From positions 1 to 20,362 of the IMG/VR virus record IMGVR_UViG_3300009537_001277: a stretch of DNA of 20,362 bases. The stretch is one strand, 5' to 3'. Shown here in pieces: positions 856 through 19,374 of the stretch. The DNA is from a virus. Made by a program: the position numbers and the translations under genes. Positions within the stretch are counted from its first letter, which is position 1. Each line of letters begins with the position of its first letter. The notes beneath the pieces are model-generated. The model did no database searches and was not told the DNA's origin. It saw nothing but the letters and a program-made list of their open reading frames with translations.

Positions 856-902
856 CCACTACCAAATTTACTTAGCAACCTGCATGAAACATGGGTGGAA
901 CC

Positions 903-2216: not shown

Positions 2217-2254
2217 GTTATGGGTTTCGTTCCCCGGCGCGACGCGCGCCGGGG
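2217..2254 (-). repeat. 38-bp hairpin leader repeat, copy 1
   Basis: Identical over 38 bases to 2565-2602. It contains CCCCGGCGC (2232-2240) and GCGCCGGGG (2246-2254), a nine-pair GC stem closable to ten pairs. It ends 16 bases before the ATG at 2200. There is no T-tract in the leftward direction, so it is not a standard terminator. It may protect or process the mRNA, or control translation. Confidence 0.8.
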
Positions 2255-2564: not shown

Positions 2565-2602
2565 GTTATGGGTTTCGTTCCCCGGCGCGACGCGCGCCGG
2601 GG
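2565..2602 (-). repeat. 38-bp hairpin leader repeat, copy 2
   Basis: Exact second copy of 2217-2254, with the same GC stem. It lies between the stop of the ATPase gene and the start of the 78-residue gene, 18 bases before that start. Identity across the loop and flanks as well as the stem points to recent duplication or strong selection. Confidence 0.8.
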
Positions 2603-3349: not shown

Positions 3350-3574
3350 CTACTTCCGCGTTCGCAGACGGATGGGATACGTCCCCAGCCAGAGCATGTA
3401 GTTCCTAAACTCAACAGCTTGACCGGCACCATGCTCACGCCGAATCTGCAAGAGCTGAGACGCAAGCATGCTGCGGTTCCGCGACCATGCCGATTGGCCA
3501 CGATACAGCCACGTCAGGGCCCATTGACTGTACACATTCGACGCCGGACGATAGTTGCCAGTGATTGCGGACAT
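3350..3574 (-). CDS. hypothetical 74-residue basic protein
   Basis: The ATG at 3574 has AAAGGAG seven bases upstream, in a leader (GGAGACAATC) nearly the same as that of the next upstream gene (GGGGACAATC). The protein is basic and rich in Trp, Tyr and Arg (WALTWLYRGQSAWSRNR, then REHGAGQAVEFRNYMLWLG). It looks helical and could bind nucleic acid, but no motif is diagnostic. It is the second gene of the leftward block. Confidence 0.6.
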   Translation of the reverse strand: MSAITGNYRPASNVYSQWALTWLYRGQSAWSRNRSMLASQLLQIRREHGAGQAVEFRNYMLWLGTYPIRLRTRK

Positions 3575-3802: not shown

Positions 3803-4389
3803 GATTGTCCCCTTGTTTGACCGTTGTTTGGCCCCTCTTTGAATCGTCCAGAACGCCTGAACGAACGATGAAGGCCTCTGTCATTGCTTTTTTGTCAAGG
3901 AAATTGCCAGGCGCATATACTTTTAGGTCGCGCGCGATCCCCCACGTTTGAGCCGGCCCCCCTGGGGTGCGTTTGTGACTCCCCTTTGTACCTAGTCCCC
4001 AAAAATCCACAAAACCCGCAACCAGGACCGAACCTTACTATTTTGATCACGTTTGTAATCAATGGGAGTGAAAAGCTGGTTTTGTGTCTGGAAAATGACC
4101 AAAAGCCTTGAAAGGTGAGCATGTGTTTTTTTGGGAAAAACGGGTCAAAAATGCGTAGAACATTGGAGAAAGTGGGTTTTTGGTCAACTGTTCCGCGTGG
4201 AACAGTTGAATGGTTTTTGGTGGTGGTGGCATGTTCTCTCTTGGCGGCAATACTTGCTGGTTCGGCTCGGCCGTCGAACTAAGCCGCCCAGGGGCTTTAA
4301 CTTCGTTGCGATCGCCGCCGCGGTTTTCCTTTGAATGTCCTGGATTTTCGGTCTTTACTGGGATGGGTATTGGTGTGTAGGATTGTGGG
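3803..4389. promoter_or_regulatory. divergent intergenic control region
   Basis: About 590 bases without a convincing gene, between the leftward early block and the rightward late block. It should hold the promoters for both. A TTGACA hexamer for leftward transcription is at 3898-3893, but no good -10 box follows at 16-18 bases. A parS-like palindrome lies at 4185-4208. From about 4130 onward the + strand becomes strongly G/T-rich, as in the genes that follow. Frames of 60-75 codons here lack ribosome binding sites and recognisable domains. Confidence 0.5.
4185..4208. promoter_or_regulatory. 24-nt palindrome containing a parS-like 16-mer
   Basis: CAACTGTTCC (4185-4194) and GGAACAGTTG (4199-4208) are perfect inverted arms around GCGT. 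The central 16-mer TGTTCCGCGTGGAACA (4189-4204) matches the chromosomal parS consensus TGTTTCACGTGAAACA at 13 of 16 positions and differs by one base from the fully symmetric form TGTTCCACGTGGAACA. It may bind a host ParB-like protein or a phage repressor. No ParB gene is in the window. Confidence 0.4.
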
Positions 4390-4695
4390 ATGAGGAAGAA
4401 GCGAGAGGATGGTGTTGGTGGTGGTTATGTGTCGTCTGCGGAGGACGGTGCGTTTCCGCATTTGCAGGATATGCGTCATGTGTGGAACAACGTTGAGGGG
4501 TGGGACAAGACGGAGGGGCAGAAGAATGCTCGGGCGTTATTGAAGGAGGATCGGGGTCGTTTTTCGACGTTGTTGCAGCAGTTGGAGAAGGAGAATCGGT
4601 TGGTGGGGAATCAGGAGAAGGAGGAGGTTGAGGATCGTGGTTTGGAGGATTGTGTGGAGATGTGTGTGAATTGGTTGGAGATGAATGGTACATGA
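4390..4695 (+). CDS. hypothetical protein in the small-terminase position
   Basis: A 101-residue hydrophilic protein, rich in Glu, Lys and Arg, with a probable helical or coiled-coil part at residues about 50-85 (RGRFSTLLQQLEKENRL onward). AGGA (4379-4382) lies seven bases before the ATG. It is the first rightward gene and sits just before the large terminase, where small terminase subunits usually lie, but no HTH domain typical of those is clear. Third codon positions are almost all G or T, as in the terminase gene and unlike the rest of the window. A stem structure with nine T's separates it from the terminase. Confidence 0.55.
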   Translation: MRKKREDGVGGGYVSSAEDGAFPHLQDMRHVWNNVEGWDKTEGQKNARALLKEDRGRFSTLLQQLEKENRLVGNQEKEEVEDRGLEDCVEMCVNWLEMNGT

Positions 4696-4724
4696 TTTGC
4701 CCTTTGGGATGGGGTGAGTTGTGG

Positions 4725-4794
4725 CCGGCCATGGCCATCAGGAGGATGGTGAAACCTCTCGGCGGGTGCCGAAAACGCTGGCCGGTTTTTTTTT
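4725..4794 (+). terminator. branched intrinsic-terminator-like structure before terminase
   Basis: An outer stem CCGGCCA (4725-4731) / TGGCCGG (4779-4785) is followed directly by nine T's (4786-4794). Inside are CCATC (4735-4739) / GATGG (4745-4749) and TCGGC (4759-4763) / GCCGA (4768-4772). Together they give a three-way junction ending in a T-tract, a layout seen in terminators and in some riboswitch expression platforms. It ends 10 bases before the chosen terminase ATG, leaving no room for a new promoter. Confidence 0.55.
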
Positions 4795-4804
4795 GGTGGA
4801 GACG

Positions 4805-6679
4805 ATGAAGGGAACGCATCATCGGAAGGTGCCGCGGGATGCTGCGGAGAACGTGGAGTATCGGAAGCGGTTATTGGAGCGTGCGCGTGGTGACCGGGAT
4901 TTTCAGCGTGGCGTAGTGCAGATGTGTCGGGAAGACATTCTTTTCTACATCAATTCGTTTGTGTGGCAGTTCAATCCGAAGAAGGAGCCGAATGAGCGGG
5001 TGGGCCCGTTTGTGACGTGGCGGTGTCAGGAGAAGTTGTTGTTGGGTGATCCTGGGATTATTTGGTGCATGAAGCACAATCGTTCGGCGGTGATTGAGAA
5101 GAGTCGGGATATGGGCATATCGTGGTTGTTCCTGATTTTTCAGGATTATCTTTCGCATTTCTTTCCGTACACGCAGGCGTTGAATATTTCGCGGTCTGCG
5201 GATGCGGTGGATGATAAGAGTCCGAACAGTTTGTTTTGGAAGATACGGTTCATGCACAAGTATTTGCCGGCGTTTTTGCGTGGTGAGGTGACGGAAGAGA
5301 AGATGTATTTTGGTTATCCGAACAAGAGTGTGGTGACGGGTGAGGCGTCAACGGGTCGAGCGGGTGTTGGTGGTCGTTCGTCGCTGGTGTTCGTGGATGA
5401 GTTCCCGCTAATCAAGGAGGATGTGGAGGTCCGTCAGAGGACGGCGGAGAATGCGGATTGCCGGTTTTTCAATGGTACGCATCAGGGTACGGGGACGGAG
5501 TTTTATCGTCTGACGCAGAGTCCGGAGTTTTATCGGTTCGTGATTCACTGGACGCGGCATCCGTTGAAGAATCCGGGGATGTATTCGTATGACGCGCAGC
5601 AAAAGAAGCTGCGGTTCTGGCGGTACAGCGAGGACATGGACCAGTTGGTTGAGACGGAGAACAAGTACAATTACGAGCCGCATTATTCGTTTGTGAAGGA
5701 TGGTACGCCGACGGGTGGTCCGCATCCTGGTATCAGGAGTCCGTGGTACGACAAGAAGGTTCGGGAGATTGGAACGGCGCGTGGTGCGGCGATGGAGTTG
5801 GACATCAACCCGAGCGGCAGCGTGAGCCAGTTTTTCGATCCGATTTTGATCCGGACGTTGACGGAGCAGTATGCTTGTGAGCCGTATTGGACGGGGCACT
5901 TGATCTATGACGATCAGACGGGGCGGGCGATCCGGCTCGACGAGACGCCGGCGGGGATTGTAAAATTGTGGTGTCCGTTGCTGGATGGGAAGCCGCCGCG
6001 GTCGTTTTACGGGATGGGTGTGGATGTGGCGGCTGGGACTGGCGCCACGCCGTCTTGTGTGTCGGTTGTGGACGGGAGGACGGGAGAGAAGGTTTGCGAG
6101 GTGGCGACGGCGCATCTTGATCCGAAGGAGTTGGCGGCGTTGGTGTTCGCGCTTTGCGAGATGTTTGTGGACGATAACGGGATTGGGGCGAAGGTCTGCT
6201 GGGAGAATCAAGGGCCTGGTGTGCCGTTTGGAAAAAGGTTGTGGGAGGATTTCGGCTACCGGAATTTGTATTTCCGGTTCAATGAAATGGATATGCGGAA
6301 AAAGAGTTCGGCGACTCCTGGGTGGGCTCCTAATTCTACGTTGACGCGGATGGTGCTTAGTGACTATTCGGAGGCGTTGAGAACGAGAATGTTCTTGAAC
6401 CGTTCGCACAAGGCACTTGAAGAGACGTTGAGTTTTCGGTATGATTCGCGCGGAGACGTTGAGAACGCCAAGAGTAGGCGGACGGATGATCCTGCGGCGG
6501 CGCGGCACAATCATGCCGATCGGGTAATTGCGGATGCGCTGGCCTGGAAGATGGTCAAGGACGAGGGGTTTGCCAAGGGCGGCGTGAAGTGGAAGAACAC
6601 GCAGGTAGTCGAAGCCGATCCGTGCACGATGGCGTACCGTCTGAAGATGAATCTGAAGGAAGATTTGGTTTGGCAATAA
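4805..6679 (+). CDS. terL: phage terminase large subunit
   Basis: A 624-residue DNA-packaging motor with an N-terminal ATPase and a C-terminal nuclease. Seen: a Walker A-like KSRDMGISW (99-107) of the terminase type without a classical GKT, Walker B VFVDEF (195-200), coupling motif FNGTHQGTG (222-230), and RNase H-like nuclease acidic residues at D407 (GVDVAAG), E467 (CWENQG) and D572/D577 (HADRVIADALAW). The start at 4805 gives the usual N-terminus and has GGTGGAG upstream, though only three bases away. A GTG at 4721 is possible, but its frame would read through the terminator-like stem. Codons favour G/T at the third position up to about base 6340, then the bias fades. The gene starts the packaging and head block. 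Confidence 0.93.
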   Translation: MKGTHHRKVPRDAAENVEYRKRLLERARGDRDFQRGVVQMCREDILFYINSFVWQFNPKKEPNERVGPFVTWRCQEKLLLGDPGIIWCMKHNRSAVIEKSRDMGISWLFLIFQDYLSHFFPYTQALNISRSADAVDDKSPNSLFWKIRFMHKYLPAFLRGEVTEEKMYFGYPNKSVVTGEASTGRAGVGGRSSLVFVDEFPLIKEDVEVRQRTAENADCRFFNGTHQGTGTEFYRLTQSPEFYRFVIHWTRHPLKNPGMYSYDAQQKKLRFWRYSEDMDQLVETENKYNYEPHYSFVKDGTPTGGPHPGIRSPWYDKKVREIGTARGAAMELDINPSGSVSQFFDPILIRTLTEQYACEPYWTGHLIYDDQTGRAIRLDETPAGIVKLWCPLLDGKPPRSFYGMGVDVAAGTGATPSCVSVVDGRTGEKVCEVATAHLDPKELAALVFALCEMFVDDNGIGAKVCWENQGPGVPFGKRLWEDFGYRNLYFRFNEMDMRKKSSATPGWAPNSTLTRMVLSDYSEALRTRMFLNRSHKALEETLSFRYDSRGDVENAKSRRTDDPAAARHNHADRVIADALAWKMVKDEGFAKGGVKWKNTQVVEADPCTMAYRLKMNLKEDLVWQ

Positions 6680-6695
6680 CCCTCTGGGTGGAGGG
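6680..6695 (+). other. GGGTGG-loop hairpin before portal
   Basis: CCCTC (6680-6684) and GAGGG (6691-6695) enclose TGGGTG. GGGTGG lies at 6686-6691, 19 bases before the portal start. It directly follows the terminase stop. It is one of five similar pyrimidine-arm/GGGTGG/purine-arm structures between late genes. Confidence 0.5.
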
Positions 6696-6710
6696 AAGCG
6701 ACAAGGGGAC

Positions 6711-8495
6711 TTGGACCGGGATTACGTTTCGTCTCTTTGTGATGCCGTTCGTGCTTCGCGTCTCATCATGCGCCCATTTCGGCAAGCGCGCATGGAGATC
6801 GAGCGTCGTATTGCCGGTCCGCGCTACTCGGAAAATTCAACTCACAAGACCAGGTACATCAACCTGGCGGGAATGTACCGGAACATTGTCGGGCGCAATC
6901 TCTTCTCGAAAGACCCGCGTGTGCTGTTGACGACGTTTGACCGCAATCAGGAAGAGGCGGTCAAGACCATGCAGGAATGGCTCAACCAGGAGTTGCCGCG
7001 CACGGAATTTGGGCCGACGTTCCGGAGGATTGTTCACGACGCGCTTACCTCGATAGGCATTGCCAAGGTCGGCATTGCAACGCCGGCAGATGCGGCGATG
7101 TATTCGTGGAGACTGGAAGCCGGAGACCCGTACTTCTGCCGTGTCGACCTGGACGATTTCGTGTTTGACACGACGGCTCGGGACTTCGCGGAGGTTGGCT
7201 ACATCGGCTATCGCTTTCGTGCGGTCAAGGAAGCGGTAGAATCGAGCAAGATGTTTGACAAGAAGGGTCGCCAGGAGTTGATGGCGACGAAGGATCGGCC
7301 TTACAACGAAGACGGCGACGAGCGGATACGCAACATCGGCCGGAACAGTTACGAGATTCCCGGCGAGTTCGAGGAGATGGTCGACCTGTGGTATATGTAC
7401 TGCCCGCGCATGAAGAGAGAAATGATTCTGTCGGACAATCAGATAGCGGGGCCGAGTGGAACCAAGCACGGCGTAAGGACAGTGCCTTTGTTCGAGCGTG
7501 AGTACATCGGGCATGAGAAGGGGCCGATTCGCGTGCTGGCTTATGATTGGATTCCTGGCAATCCATTTCCGAAGGGTCCGATTCAAGACATCATGGACCT
7601 CGACGATGCTTTCAACCAGAGCTACCGGAAGCTGACGCGGCAGGCCGCGCGGCTGAAGGAAATCACCGTCGTTCGCAAGGGCAATCAGTCGGACATGGCG
7701 GCGATCAAGGAATCGTCCGACGGCGATATTGTGCCGGTGGACAATCCGGAGGCTACGAAGGTCATCGTGCAGGGCGGGCCGAATCAAGCGCTTTTCCTGT
7801 TCATGCAAAAGCTCATGAAAGATTTCTCTTGGGCGGCTGGGAACCTGGATGTCCTCGGCGGCCTGGCATCGCAAGCGGAGACATTTGGGCAAGAGCAACT
7901 TCTTGCCAATCAATCGAGCGGTCAAGTAGCGTCGATGCAGGACACGACGGGCAACTTCGCGGCGGACATTGTCGAGTCGCTTGGGTGGCTGTACTGGCAT
8001 CATCCGCAGAAGGTGATGCAGACGAAAAAGGCGCTGGATACGCTGCCGGGCATTTGGGTCAATCAGGAGTTGCATCCGTGGACCAATGAAGACCCGAACG
8101 CGATGAAGCGCGATGGGGAAATGCCGCAGATCAAGATCGATCTTTACTCGCTGAAGCACACGACGCCGGAACGCAAGGCGTCTCAGATCACGCAGGTCGT
8201 TACGCAGGTCTTGGCGCCGATGATGACGGCGGCGCAGCAGCAAGGCAAGGCGTTCAATTTCAGCGAGTTCTTGGAAACGATCAGCACGTATTGGGACTTG
8301 CCCGAGCTGAAGAAAATCATGATGACGGCGGAACCTCCCCCGGAAGTGGAAACCGGTAAGGCAGCGGGCACGCCGACGGAAACCACGCGCAACTACGTTC
8401 GCCGGTCCACCGGTGGAAACTCCGCACGGGCGCAAGAGGCTCAGATGGAGGTTGCAGCCGAGGTAGGCAGCAACGGCCGGGTGAATGGTTACTAG
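6711..8495 (+). CDS. phage portal protein
   Basis: A 594-residue protein placed directly after terminase, with the length and character of podovirus portals: a helical N-terminus (MRPFRQARMEIERRIAG at residues 20-36), a mixed core with PYFCRVDLDDFVFD near residues 140-155 and NPFPKGPIQDIMDLDDAFNQ near 280-305, and a helical C-terminal part ending in a low-complexity tail. Portals form the dodecamer through which DNA enters the head. The start used is TTG at 6711 after AAGGGG; the first in-frame ATG (6768) has no ribosome binding site and would drop 19 residues. The stop TAG at 8493-8495 overlaps the AGGAGG of the next gene. The family is assigned by position and composition, without a search. 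Confidence 0.85.
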   Translation: MDRDYVSSLCDAVRASRLIMRPFRQARMEIERRIAGPRYSENSTHKTRYINLAGMYRNIVGRNLFSKDPRVLLTTFDRNQEEAVKTMQEWLNQELPRTEFGPTFRRIVHDALTSIGIAKVGIATPADAAMYSWRLEAGDPYFCRVDLDDFVFDTTARDFAEVGYIGYRFRAVKEAVESSKMFDKKGRQELMATKDRPYNEDGDERIRNIGRNSYEIPGEFEEMVDLWYMYCPRMKREMILSDNQIAGPSGTKHGVRTVPLFEREYIGHEKGPIRVLAYDWIPGNPFPKGPIQDIMDLDDAFNQSYRKLTRQAARLKEITVVRKGNQSDMAAIKESSDGDIVPVDNPEATKVIVQGGPNQALFLFMQKLMKDFSWAAGNLDVLGGLASQAETFGQEQLLANQSSGQVASMQDTTGNFAADIVESLGWLYWHHPQKVMQTKKALDTLPGIWVNQELHPWTNEDPNAMKRDGEMPQIKIDLYSLKHTTPERKASQITQVVTQVLAPMMTAAQQQGKAFNFSEFLETISTYWDLPELKKIMMTAEPPPEVETGKAAGTPTETTRNYVRRSTGGNSARAQEAQMEVAAEVGSNGRVNGY

Positions 8496-8504
8496 GAGGT
8501 CGAT

Positions 8505-8882
8505 ATGCCAAGATTCATCGTCAGGTACAAACCAACGGGCGCGAAGATGCAGGATTTCGATGCGCCGGTGGTGGCCGGGATTCATGGCGTGTTCGTGAAC
8601 CACACGGACGCGGACGCGGCGGCCCAGCGCTGCCTGGATTTTTTCAACAAGCGAACCATCGTGGAAAAGTCGGTTGGTGGCGACATGCAGGAACACGTCG
8701 TCGCCAGCCAGGAACTGGAGAAACAAGTAGTGACCGTTTGGATCGAGGAGGAGGACGCATGCGCGCAGTCATCCGCGGCTACGGAGAACGCACCACGTAC
8801 TGGCTTGACGGAAAACAAGTCAGCAAAAAGCGGTTCGACAAAGCAGTCCCCGACAAGCCAATCGGCGACGGCTCCAGCTTGA
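8505..8882 (+). CDS. hypothetical virion-cluster protein
   Basis: A 125-residue protein with a strong AGGAGG site six bases before its ATG. Residues 1-85 look like a folded alpha/beta domain (MPRFIVRYKPTGAKMQDFDA, later FFNKRTIVEKS and VTVWIEEED). From about residue 86 the sequence becomes a Ser/Thr/Ala/Lys low-complexity tail, exactly where the next gene starts in another frame. The last 124 bases therefore overlap the 8759-9085 gene. Either the tail is a disordered by-product of overlap or the real protein is joined to the next one by frameshifting; no slippery site was found. The function is unknown. Confidence 0.65.
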   Translation: MPRFIVRYKPTGAKMQDFDAPVVAGIHGVFVNHTDADAAAQRCLDFFNKRTIVEKSVGGDMQEHVVASQELEKQVVTVWIEEEDACAQSSAATENAPRTGLTENKSAKSGSTKQSPTSQSATAPA

Positions 8883-9085
8883 TCGGCTGGAAACCGCTGG
8901 TGTCCGATGCTCTGGCCGTGCATCCGGACCAGGTACCGGAAGTGATCGAGAGGAACCGCAAGCATGGCATCAACGTGCACTATGACAGCGACGGTTGCCC
9001 GGTGCTGCCGACGCGCCAGGTGCGTAAGGCGTTGATGAAGATCGAAGGGCACTTTGACCGTGCGGGCGGCTATGGCGATGCGTGA
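8759..9085 (+). CDS. conserved-looking phage hypothetical protein
   Basis: A 108-residue protein with GAGGAGGA before its ATG at 8759. It has a basic N-terminus with a short beta strand (MRAVIRGYGERTTYWLDGKQ) and a well-ordered C-terminal half (VSDALAVHPDQVPEVIERNR, then GGYGDA at the end). The segment around HPDQVPEVIERNRKHG followed by a short beta strand and a helix matches my recollection of uncharacterised proteins lying between portal and capsid genes in other phages. Codon use is normal over its whole length, including the part overlapping the previous gene, so it is more likely than that tail to be selected. Its role may be in assembly. Confidence 0.72.
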   Translation: MRAVIRGYGERTTYWLDGKQVSKKRFDKAVPDKPIGDGSSLIGWKPLVSDALAVHPDQVPEVIERNRKHGINVHYDSDGCPVLPTRQVRKALMKIEGHFDRAGGYGDA

Positions 9086-9093
9086 TGGTTGGA

Positions 9094-9120
9094 TTCTTTC
9101 TTTCATGGGTGGAAGAAAGA
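9094..9120 (+). repeat. 27-bp hairpin repeat, copy 1 (GGGTGG loop)
   Basis: Identical over 27 bases to 9549-9575. TCTTTCTTTC (9095-9104) pairs with GGAAGAAAGA (9111-9120), ten pairs with one G-U, around the loop ATGGGT. GGGTGG (9107-9112) ends 18 bases before the ATG at 9131, which has no Shine-Dalgarno sequence of its own. Confidence 0.8.
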
Positions 9121-9130
9121 CAGTTTTGAC

Positions 9131-9499
9131 ATGGCCGATGAAATCACCGTCTCCGCGTCCATTCGCTACGAGGACAGCGAGGATGCCGACGAGTCCTTGA
9201 GCCTCGAAGACATCCTGGCGGACGTAGCAACCAAGAAATACACCAAGGTCAAGGTGTCTGTAGGCACGTCCGAAGAGGCGGTGCCATTGGGTGAAAGCAC
9301 GTCGCCGGGTTGGGCAATGTTCATCAATCGCGATGGTACGAACTTCGTGAGTATCAAGGTGGCCACGAGCGGGGCGATTTTCGCGAAGTTGCTGCCGGGG
9401 GAGTTCGCACTACTTCGCCTCGGCTCAGGCGCGCAAGCGCCGTTCTGGATTGCCGATACCGCGGCCTGCCAGTGCGAAGTATTTATCGTGCAAACGTAA
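9131..9499 (+). CDS. putative capsid decoration or minor structural protein
   Basis: A 122-residue protein starting MADEITVSASIRYEDSEDAD. It is predicted to be mostly beta: GTSEEAVPLGESTSPGWAMF, then a strand around NFVSIKVATSGAIFAKLLPG and an end WIADTAACQCEVFIVQT. This GTSEEA(V/L)PLG...PGW pattern recalls small beta-sandwich proteins found near capsid genes in many phages, so a head decoration or minor virion protein is likely. The longer frame from 9089 would translate the hairpin repeat; the second copy of that repeat is non-coding, so 9131 is preferred. No SD is present, which makes the hairpin leader the notable feature. Confidence 0.65.
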   Translation: MADEITVSASIRYEDSEDADESLSLEDILADVATKKYTKVKVSVGTSEEAVPLGESTSPGWAMFINRDGTNFVSIKVATSGAIFAKLLPGEFALLRLGSGAQAPFWIADTAACQCEVFIVQT

Positions 9500-9506
9500 G
9501 CTAGTG

Positions 9507-9535
9507 TTGACTAACTTGCGCAGACGTTGTAGGAT
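9507..9535 (+). promoter_or_regulatory. candidate sigma-70 promoter
   Basis: TTGACT (9507-9512) and TAGGAT (9530-9535) are spaced by exactly 17 bases and match the -35 and -10 consensus at five and four of six positions. The predicted start, near 9542, would give a leader consisting almost only of the second hairpin repeat before the scaffold gene. The 85-base gap between genes here is large for this block, which supports a promoter. Confidence 0.45.
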
Positions 9536-9548
9536 TTGCGCTATAAGT

Positions 9549-9575
9549 TTCTTTCTTTCATGGGTGGAAGAAAGA
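9549..9575 (+). repeat. 27-bp hairpin repeat, copy 2 (GGGTGG loop)
   Basis: Exact second copy of 9094-9120 with the same ten-pair stem. GGGTGG (9562-9567) ends 17 bases before the GTG at 9585. A TGA lies immediately before that GTG, so this copy is not translated in the gene's frame. The flanks are not identical, so the repeat unit is the hairpin itself. Confidence 0.8.
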
Positions 9576-9584
9576 TCGATTTGA

Positions 9585-10562
9585 GTGGCAGAAAACAAGG
9601 TTGATATCGCAGCAGTGAACCTGCCCGATCCCAAACTGCAAGAATACGATCACCGCGATCTCGCGGACGAAGAATCGGAAGATACGGTCACGCCCGCAGC
9701 GGAACCGCCAGCGGCCGCCGCGCCGGAAGCACCTCCCGAAAAACCAGCCGAACCAACTCCCAAGCCTCTGAAGTCCGCGCATCCGCGTGCGTTGGTTCGT
9801 CGCGCGCTCGAACTTGGCGCGGCGCGTGGGATCACTCGCGATCAAATCGAGGCGGCGACTCCCGAAGAACTCGACGACTGGCTTGAGCAGGAAGAGGCGT
9901 TGCAAAAGCAGATGCCCGTCGAGGACAAGAAGCCGGCGAAGGAAGAGGACGACGACGAAATCGTCCTTGACGACGAAGTTGTTGGCACGCTCGACAAGGG
10001 CATTCAGAAGGCGCTCAAGGCGGTGCCGAAGCTGCTGAAGCAGAACAAGGAGCTTTCCAAGAAGCTCGAAGACGCCGAGAAGCGCGACCACATCCGCAAT
10101 CAGAAGCTCATCACCGAGGCGATTGACGCATCTTTCGCCGCGGTTCCCGATCGGTACAAGAAGCTCGTCGGCGAAGGCGGCATCGACGACATCGACAAGA
10201 CCGGCAAAGAGGCGCAGCGCCGACTTGCCATTCTTCGTCACGCCAACATCGATCCGACGAAGGACTCGGCCAGGACCATCGCCAAGAAGGTCAAGGACAC
10301 GCTTGACCTGCTGTACGGCGATGAAACGCCCGAGCCTGCGCCTGCACCGGTCAAGCAAGAAAAGCCGGTCGAAAAGAACGGCAAGCGGATCACGCCGGAC
10401 CAGTGGGCGGCGGCGGCAACTCCTGCGCCGACGCGGCGGCAGATCAAGGAGCCGAAAGGCCAGGCGGCGGCGATCAGCGCGGTCAACACGAAGCTCCGGG
10501 AGATGGGCATCCTTGGCGCCGACATCGACGACGCGCCGGAGTTGGACACGGTTCCCGATTAG
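9585..10562 (+). CDS. putative capsid scaffolding protein
   Basis: A 325-residue charged protein directly upstream of the major capsid gene, the usual place for scaffold. Residues about 37-63 are Pro/Ala-rich, 95-130 very acidic (EELDDWLEQEEA, EEDDDEIVLDD), and 135-180 form a long Lys/Glu/Leu helix suited to a coiled coil (KAVPKLLKQNKELSKKLEDA). The C-terminal part (230-300) is again Pro/Ala/Lys-rich and ends with a helix around SAVNTKLREMG. Scaffolds guide capsid assembly and then leave. The start is GTG at 9585, without a good Shine-Dalgarno sequence but with the hairpin repeat upstream. The assignment rests on composition and position. Confidence 0.72.
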   Translation: MAENKVDIAAVNLPDPKLQEYDHRDLADEESEDTVTPAAEPPAAAAPEAPPEKPAEPTPKPLKSAHPRALVRRALELGAARGITRDQIEAATPEELDDWLEQEEALQKQMPVEDKKPAKEEDDDEIVLDDEVVGTLDKGIQKALKAVPKLLKQNKELSKKLEDAEKRDHIRNQKLITEAIDASFAAVPDRYKKLVGEGGIDDIDKTGKEAQRRLAILRHANIDPTKDSARTIAKKVKDTLDLLYGDETPEPAPAPVKQEKPVEKNGKRITPDQWAAAATPAPTRRQIKEPKGQAAAISAVNTKLREMGILGADIDDAPELDTVPD

Positions 10563-10593
10563 TTTTGTCTTGGGTGGGTCGTAAAGGACGAAA
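10563..10593 (+). other. GGGTGG leader before the major capsid gene
   Basis: GGGTGG at 10572-10577 ends 16 bases before the capsid ATG. TTTTGTC (10563-10569) can pair with GAC-AAAA (10587-10594, one bulged G), but this stem is weaker than in the 27-bp repeats. A normal AAAGGA ribosome binding site is also present at 10583-10588. Confidence 0.35.
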
Positions 10594-11634
10594 ATGCCGA
10601 CTCTTCAAATCGAACAATTCGGGGACTTGGTTCGGACCACTCAGAACGAGCTTGGTGAACCGAACTTCGTGAACCTCATGTCCACGCTGCGGGAGTTTCC
10701 CGCTGCAAAGATGCTCCTCAAAAAAAGCCAGATGAAGGTCCAGGCCGGGCCGCAAATCGAATGGCGCATCATGGTGGATCACAACCACCAGGCCGAAAAC
10801 GTGGCCATCACGGACCACGATTCGATGGGCGCCAAGGATGGTATGATCGTCGCGAAGATCAACTGGAAGAAGACCAAGACCGGCTACTCCTTCTACCACG
10901 AAGAAATTCTGGCCAATCGCGAGCCGCGCAAGATCGTGGACCTTATCACGGTCAAGCGGGCGCAGTCGCAAACTTCATGGGTCGAGTTGATGGAGCAGAA
11001 CTTCTGGAAGTTCCCGACGGCTTCCGACGTGCGCACGCCGCTTGGCTTGCCGTACTGGGTGCCGAAGAACGCCACGGAAGGATTCAACGGCGGCCATCCC
11101 ACCGGCTATTCCTCGGTGGCGGATGTGTCCTCGACCACCTACCCGCGATGGAACAGCTACAGCGGTCAATACACGTCCGTCACGTCGGACAACTTGATTC
11201 GCATGGCGCGCAAGATGGCCCGTCTCACCCATTTCAAGCCGGCGGTGGATGGGCTGCCCAGCTTCGACAAAGGCGAGCAGAGGAAATACTTCACGAACGA
11301 TTCCGTCTTTGCTTCGCTGGAAGAAATTCTGGACGGCAAGAACGACAACCACGGCAACGAGCTGGCGAAGTACGACGGGACCGTCAAGTTTCGCCGCGCG
11401 GACGTGGAGACGATTCCCTACCTGGACGCGGATACGACCAATCCGTTTTACCAGATCGATTTCGGCGTTTTCGGCATGGTGTGCCTCAATGGCGCCTGGG
11501 CCAAAGAAACCACCTGGGACCGTTATCCCGGTCAGCGCAACGTGACGGCGGTCTTCATCGACTACGTTTACAACTTCATCTGCCGCGACCGACGCAAGCA
11601 AGGCGTTCTGGCGACTGGCACGTCCTACCCGTGA
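10594..11634 (+). CDS. major capsid protein
   Basis: A 346-residue protein following the scaffold-like gene, with the length and layout of HK97-fold major capsid proteins. It opens with a helical N-terminal arm (LQIEQFGDLVRTTQNELGEP), has an E-loop/spine-like part around residues 55-140, and a beta-rich C-terminal part with TTNPFYQIDFGVFGMVCLNG near 288-307. The aromatic content is high (WVELMEQNFWKFP). AAAGGA provides its ribosome binding site. It would form the head shell on the portal. The fold is inferred from position and general pattern; a structure prediction would settle it. Confidence 0.8.
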   Translation: MPTLQIEQFGDLVRTTQNELGEPNFVNLMSTLREFPAAKMLLKKSQMKVQAGPQIEWRIMVDHNHQAENVAITDHDSMGAKDGMIVAKINWKKTKTGYSFYHEEILANREPRKIVDLITVKRAQSQTSWVELMEQNFWKFPTASDVRTPLGLPYWVPKNATEGFNGGHPTGYSSVADVSSTTYPRWNSYSGQYTSVTSDNLIRMARKMARLTHFKPAVDGLPSFDKGEQRKYFTNDSVFASLEEILDGKNDNHGNELAKYDGTVKFRRADVETIPYLDADTTNPFYQIDFGVFGMVCLNGAWAKETTWDRYPGQRNVTAVFIDYVYNFICRDRRKQGVLATGTSYP

Positions 11635-11638
11635 CCGG

Positions 11639-11655
11639 CTTGATGGGTGGGCGAG
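11639..11655 (+). other. GGGTGG hairpin after the capsid gene
   Basis: CTTG (11639-11642) and CGAG (11652-11655) can pair around a loop with GGGTGG at 11645-11650. The stem is short (four pairs with a G-U). It lies 33 bases before the ATG at 11684, or six before an alternative TTG at 11657. Confidence 0.3.
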
Positions 11656-19351: not shown

Positions 19352-19374
19352 TGACCACATAGAGGGTGGATGAA

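Follow-up and report, generated by a model that had tools for sequence, protein, structure and literature searches.

The window, that is, the whole stretch of DNA analysed here, comprises 20,362 bases of an IMG/VR virus record. With gene starts set by inspection, the gene order is terminase (4805–6679), portal (6711–8495), small genes, g9131, a probable scaffold (9585–10562), MCP (10594–11634) and later genes. The scaffold is named from its position directly before the MCP gene and from partial similarity to the pre-MCP ORF of a related phage (L089).

The word GGGTGG is found in this region at positions 6686–6691, 9107–9112, 9562–9567, 10572–10577 and 11645–11650. It ends 19, 18, 17 and 16 nt before the starts at 6711, 9131, 9585 and 10594, exactly as given in the preliminary description, which was also right to place a fifth copy after the MCP gene. 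That description took the five copies for a single recurring hairpin serving as a dedicated leader of virion genes. The features of the region are as follows:

6680–6695, plus strand: separate 6-bp hairpin CCCUCU-GGGU-GGAGGG, between the terminase stop and the portal start
9094–9120, plus strand: hairpin copy A, 11-bp stem (9095–9105/9110–9120) with loop UGGG, 10 nt before ATG 9131
9131–9499, plus strand: g9131, coding for a 122-aa accessory protein, between copies A and B
9507–9535, plus strand: candidate sigma-70-like promoter TTGACT-17-TAGGAT, matching 9/12 consensus positions, upstream of copy B
9549–9575, plus strand: hairpin copy B, with the same sequence as A and 9 nt before GTG 9585
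9585–10562, plus strand: probable scaffold gene, which follows copy B, has a GTG start and encodes 325 aa
10572–10577, plus strand: GGGTGG before the MCP gene, in the 13-nt loop of a weak hairpin (z −0.39)
11645–11650, plus strand: GGGTGG downstream of the MCP gene and 33 nt before ATG 11684, with no such local hairpin in the predicted fold

The word GGGTGG and the sites outside the repeat

In the whole window, GGGTGG was observed 17 times compared to 11.9 expected, which is no clear enrichment. In a comparison of the 45-nt leaders that precede 18 assumed starts, it was the commonest hexamer and present in seven of them. The maximum over all hexamers reached 7 in 0/2000 leader shuffles, which preserve dinucleotides only, and in 8/2000 random-window sets; after removal of one duplicate copy, 6 was reached in 7/2000 and 56/2000, respectively. 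Since the 18 starts were hand-chosen and the test is post hoc, the enrichment in leaders, also allowing for the duplicate, is graded as weak to moderate. Among the seven leader copies, two stand at the spacing of a Shine-Dalgarno sequence:

893–898, plus strand: GGGTGG, 4 nt before ATG 903
19364–19369, plus strand: GGGTGG, 5 nt before ATG 19375

These two copies would fit a role of GGGUGG as a ribosome-attracting site (an alternative Shine-Dalgarno sequence or standby site) that pairs with UCACCU of the 16S 3′ end. Using an assumed 16S tail, not one taken from the host, the pairing was computed to be about −6.7 kcal/mol, and GGGUGG provides the best such pairing in the leaders of 9131, 9585 and 10594. 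However, four of the five sites in the virion region are 16–19 nt and one is 33 nt upstream of a start, beyond the normal pairing range; in copies A and B the word is partly stem and partly tight loop, and the leaders of related phages carry ordinary purine-rich ribosome-binding sites. We regard this explanation as improbable.

Folding separates the five sites from each other. The duplicated hairpin is the only one that is individually unusual when compared to shuffles (z about −2.6, p about 0.01). The hairpin at 6680–6695 has GGGU as its loop and a register unlike that of copies A and B, and its site yielded p 0.17, or z −1.95 with wider flanks; sites 10572 and 11645 showed no folding advantage over shuffles. 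In an alignment of the five sites, 74% of cells were paired in the structure assessed, compared to 74% in shuffles, and no excess of compensating changes was observed. Only the duplicated pair is thus alike, the remaining sites differing in fold or register, and the claim of one hairpin common to all five did not hold. The starts at 6711, 10594 and 11684 have plausible Shine-Dalgarno sequences by inspection, and AAAGGA adjoins the MCP start. Chance, or G-rich matches resembling ribosome-binding sites, is the best explanation for the three sites outside the repeat.

Some known classes of element were ruled out. None of the five GGGTGG sites appears in the list of terminator-like sequences, and none has a G+C-rich stem followed by a T run, which excludes an intrinsic terminator. 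By inspection, the loops UGGG and GGGU lack the ANGGA of a CsrA/RsmA-type site, and an upstream mini-ORF (ATGGGTGGA) is rejected because its frames do not join genes 9131 and 9585. In a search against Rfam, no match at the family gathering score was found anywhere in the window.

The duplicated hairpin and the gene between its copies

The identity of 9094–9120 and 9549–9575 over 27 nt is real and far beyond chance, and the second copy is indeed non-coding, lying fully between the g9131 stop at 9499 and GTG 9585. Equally correct was the statement that the starts at 9131 and 9585 are without a canonical Shine-Dalgarno sequence. Allowing up to 3 mismatches, the window contains no third match to the 24-nt core of the repeat (0 expected). 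Taken alone, the 27-mer has a folding energy of −10.8 kcal/mol (z −3.4). The hairpin spans 9095–9120 of the repeat, so that sequence identity ends almost exactly at the hairpin boundary. As the 11-bp stem is capped by UGGG, the loop is not GGGTGG as first described.

The dyad (CTTTCTTTCATGGGTGGAAGAAAG) could also act as a DNA operator bound by a regulator, for example the phage's helix-turn-helix-like protein (375–656). Copy B is located just downstream of the promoter-like sequence, related phages carry dispersed palindromes, and the ESAS repeats of cluster K phages have been suggested as DNA-binding sites (PMC3203893). Nevertheless, we consider an operator quite improbable: only two copies exist at up to 3 mismatches, neither of them near the helix-turn-helix-like gene, and upstream of copy A no promoter-like sequence is listed. 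The promoter evidence at 9507–9535 is weak as well, since five sigma-70-like sites were found in the region compared to 3.9 expected. In addition, the asymmetric loop and the U-G pair in the stem fit RNA better than a DNA palindrome.

Gene g9131 is accessory. Among the matches listed, a homologue was present in 2 of 60 relatives holding both portal and MCP. The closest homologue among these matches is that of L205, with 62% identity and in the same position. The place of the gene varies: L142 and L206 have it after the terminase gene, L094 and L205 between g8759 and MCP. The hairpin was not found in the g9131 leader of L205, indicating that it is not needed for this gene order. The predicted model of the g9131 protein consists mostly of beta strands with moderate confidence (pLDDT 75); a fold search with this model yielded only jelly-roll/cupin-like matches of middling score, and therefore no function is claimed.

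The direct repeats on both sides of an accessory gene introduce the main rival to an mRNA stem-loop, namely that the repeat is a functionless recombination scar left by gain, loss or conversion around g9131, in which the hairpin has no role. A parallel is known from the cluster O phage Corndog, whose gene 14 lies between two copies of a 17-bp direct repeat that sister phages carry once (PMC4351075), and the repeat of the window is not conserved in the relatives listed. On the other hand, the exact identity ends where the hairpin ends, and the genome holds a second, unrelated pair of repeats that likewise folds into a stable hairpin immediately ahead of a ribosome-binding region. We judge a mere footprint to be unlikely, though to be taken seriously. 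The second pair is located on the opposite strand:

2565–2602, minus strand: duplicated leader copy 1, 10-bp hairpin CCCCGGCGCGCGTCGCGCCGGGG + AACGAAACCCATAAC, then AAAAGGAA before ATG 2546
2217–2254, minus strand: duplicated leader copy 2, before a minus-strand gene starting near 2201

The two leaders are identical over 38 nt, corresponding to the 10-bp hairpin and a 15-nt linker, and diverge towards the start codon. The hairpin is very stable (z −3.9). The pair is unrelated in sequence to copies A and B, but the layout of hairpin, linker and ribosome-binding region is alike. Given this pair, the duplicated hairpin-leader design is not specific to virion genes.

Related phages and the probable host

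Single-protein searches yielded no relative, neither with MCP and terminase against viral contigs nor with terminase against genome contigs, and an exact 23-mer scan of viral contigs gave zero matches. Relatives were obtained among viral and genome contigs with profile searches based on terminase alignments. The viral-contig relatives are the matches listed by these searches, and nearer ones may exist; protein identity to the window ranges from 30 to 62% among the matches listed, and is about 35–62% for the nearest of them. Genome contigs holding relatives in the terminase-alignment search are labelled Phycisphaerae, Planctomycetota, Verrucomicrobia and others, on which basis a planctomycete-type bacterial host is likely, but not proven.

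When the related phages were searched for the element, as the preliminary description had suggested, the GGGTGG loop, its spacing and the hairpin were absent from the portal, MCP, g9131, adaptor and g8759 leaders of the matches listed, an outcome that this description had itself named as refuting. The word itself was present in 8/96 portal leaders, 1/56 MCP leaders and none of the others among these matches; starts were taken automatically from tblastn matches, so that single leaders may be misplaced. The portal value exceeds the 1.4 expected among the matches listed, but does not reflect a hairpin: in L159, L123, L138 and L113 the word falls in the last terminase codons and reads Gly-Trp, and in two sister pairs (L157/L117 and L129/L127) it lies within a gap of 124–273 nt. 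When a covariance model was built from the five sites, it recovered them in the window and detected nothing significant in 55 relatives listed (600 kb, best E 0.53). As the nearest listed relatives are distant, this absence speaks against a family-wide element and leaves room for a rapidly evolving, lineage-specific one. Of the proposed dedicated virion leader, the hairpin shared by the adjacent genes 9131 and 9585 stands, whereas a dedicated GGGTGG-loop leader is not supported: loop and register differ between sites, compensating changes are not in excess of controls, and the listed relatives lack the element.

Several relatives carry repeats of their own. L205, whose 48.8-kb record has the same gene order as the window, harbours about 24 dispersed copies of a 22-bp palindrome (CAACCCGCAACGTTGCGGGTTG), some of them before the portal and MCP genes; its positions include 387–410, 3374–3397 and 4796–4819. 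Repeated exact palindromes of about 20–35 nt, different in each genome, were seen in L112, L115, L118, L130 and L181. It is conceivable, but very improbable, that the phage family uses genome-private stem-loop leaders before several genes, which turn over fast and may be recognised by a phage-specific factor that binds RNA or DNA. This idea draws on the two duplicated leaders of the window, the L205 palindrome and those in L112, L115, L118 and L181.

Interpretation and comparison with known systems

The repeat is a hairpin before two starts, g9131 is accessory and a similar pair exists on the minus strand. On these grounds we tentatively favour, with a probability of roughly 45%, a lineage-specific hairpin that was duplicated before g9131 and the probable scaffold gene and acts as an mRNA stem-loop, the other GGGTGG copies being chance or ribosome-binding-like matches. 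Copies A and B probably arose by recombination around g9131. The steps leading from this anatomy to a function we infer from sequence: in the mRNA, the hairpin would form an intergenic stem-loop protecting or bounding the message and would leave the 9–10 nt before each start unpaired, and each gene might thereby keep an initiation region of its own on a polycistronic transcript. Several points argue against this reading, among them the L205 leader without the hairpin. The identity of the two copies could stem from a recent duplication without function, and the stem pairs AGAAAG, a possible ribosome-binding sequence, so that the hairpin might repress rather than help.

The layout may be likened to that of the gene 10 leader and RNase III processing hairpins of phage T7, where a late virion gene within a polycistronic message has a stem-loop ahead of its ribosome-binding region. 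A strong Shine-Dalgarno sequence and mapped processing sites set the T7 leaders apart from those of the window.

The nearest start-linked repeats that we found described are the SAS and ESAS of cluster K mycobacteriophages, which resemble the window element in lying just upstream of the starts of several genes. The SAS is a 13-bp AGGAG-containing repeat with 11–19 copies, typically located 3–7 bp from the starts of non-structural genes; SAS and ESAS have a lineage-specific consensus, part of them with inverted repeats upstream (PMC3203893). The window holds two copies at up to 3 mismatches in a record that may be incomplete, and its hairpin lacks AGGAG, ends 9–10 nt before virion-module starts and forms an RNA-type dyad. 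It is also not conserved in the listed relatives, although these are more distant than cluster K phages are from each other. Copy number, spacing, the AGGAG core and conservation rule out membership in this group.

Two features of Corndog invite comparison. Like its gene 14, g9131 is an accessory gene with an exact repeat, here of 27 nt, on both sides; the gene-14 repeat differs in that it is not described as a leader hairpin. Corndog also carries 34 copies of a 17-bp palindrome that show no link to starts (PMC4351075), which is reminiscent of the genome-private dispersed palindromes in relatives of the window phage.

On present evidence, the five-site GGGTGG element as first described is not a new regulatory system. 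The duplicated hairpin is a local and fairly ordinary feature of a little-known phage. If functional, it would show an accessory gene of the virion module gaining a working leader by copying that of its neighbour, in phages of poorly studied hosts. If not, it cautions that a short G-rich word together with pyrimidine and purine arms easily mimics a recurring RNA element.

Some minor features were observed elsewhere in the window. Positions 1–126 at its left end resemble the 3′ part of a tRNA (GGTTCGAATCCTGTAGCGCCCA); neither ARAGORN nor Rfam reported a tRNA gene in this segment, which may be an attachment-site remnant. A 23-nt inverted repeat (83%) at 666–688 and 841–863 encloses a stretch of 152 nt and adjoins the helix-turn-helix-like gene. 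By eye, the terminase region (4380–6500) appears strikingly G+T-rich on the coding strand compared to the genes after it.
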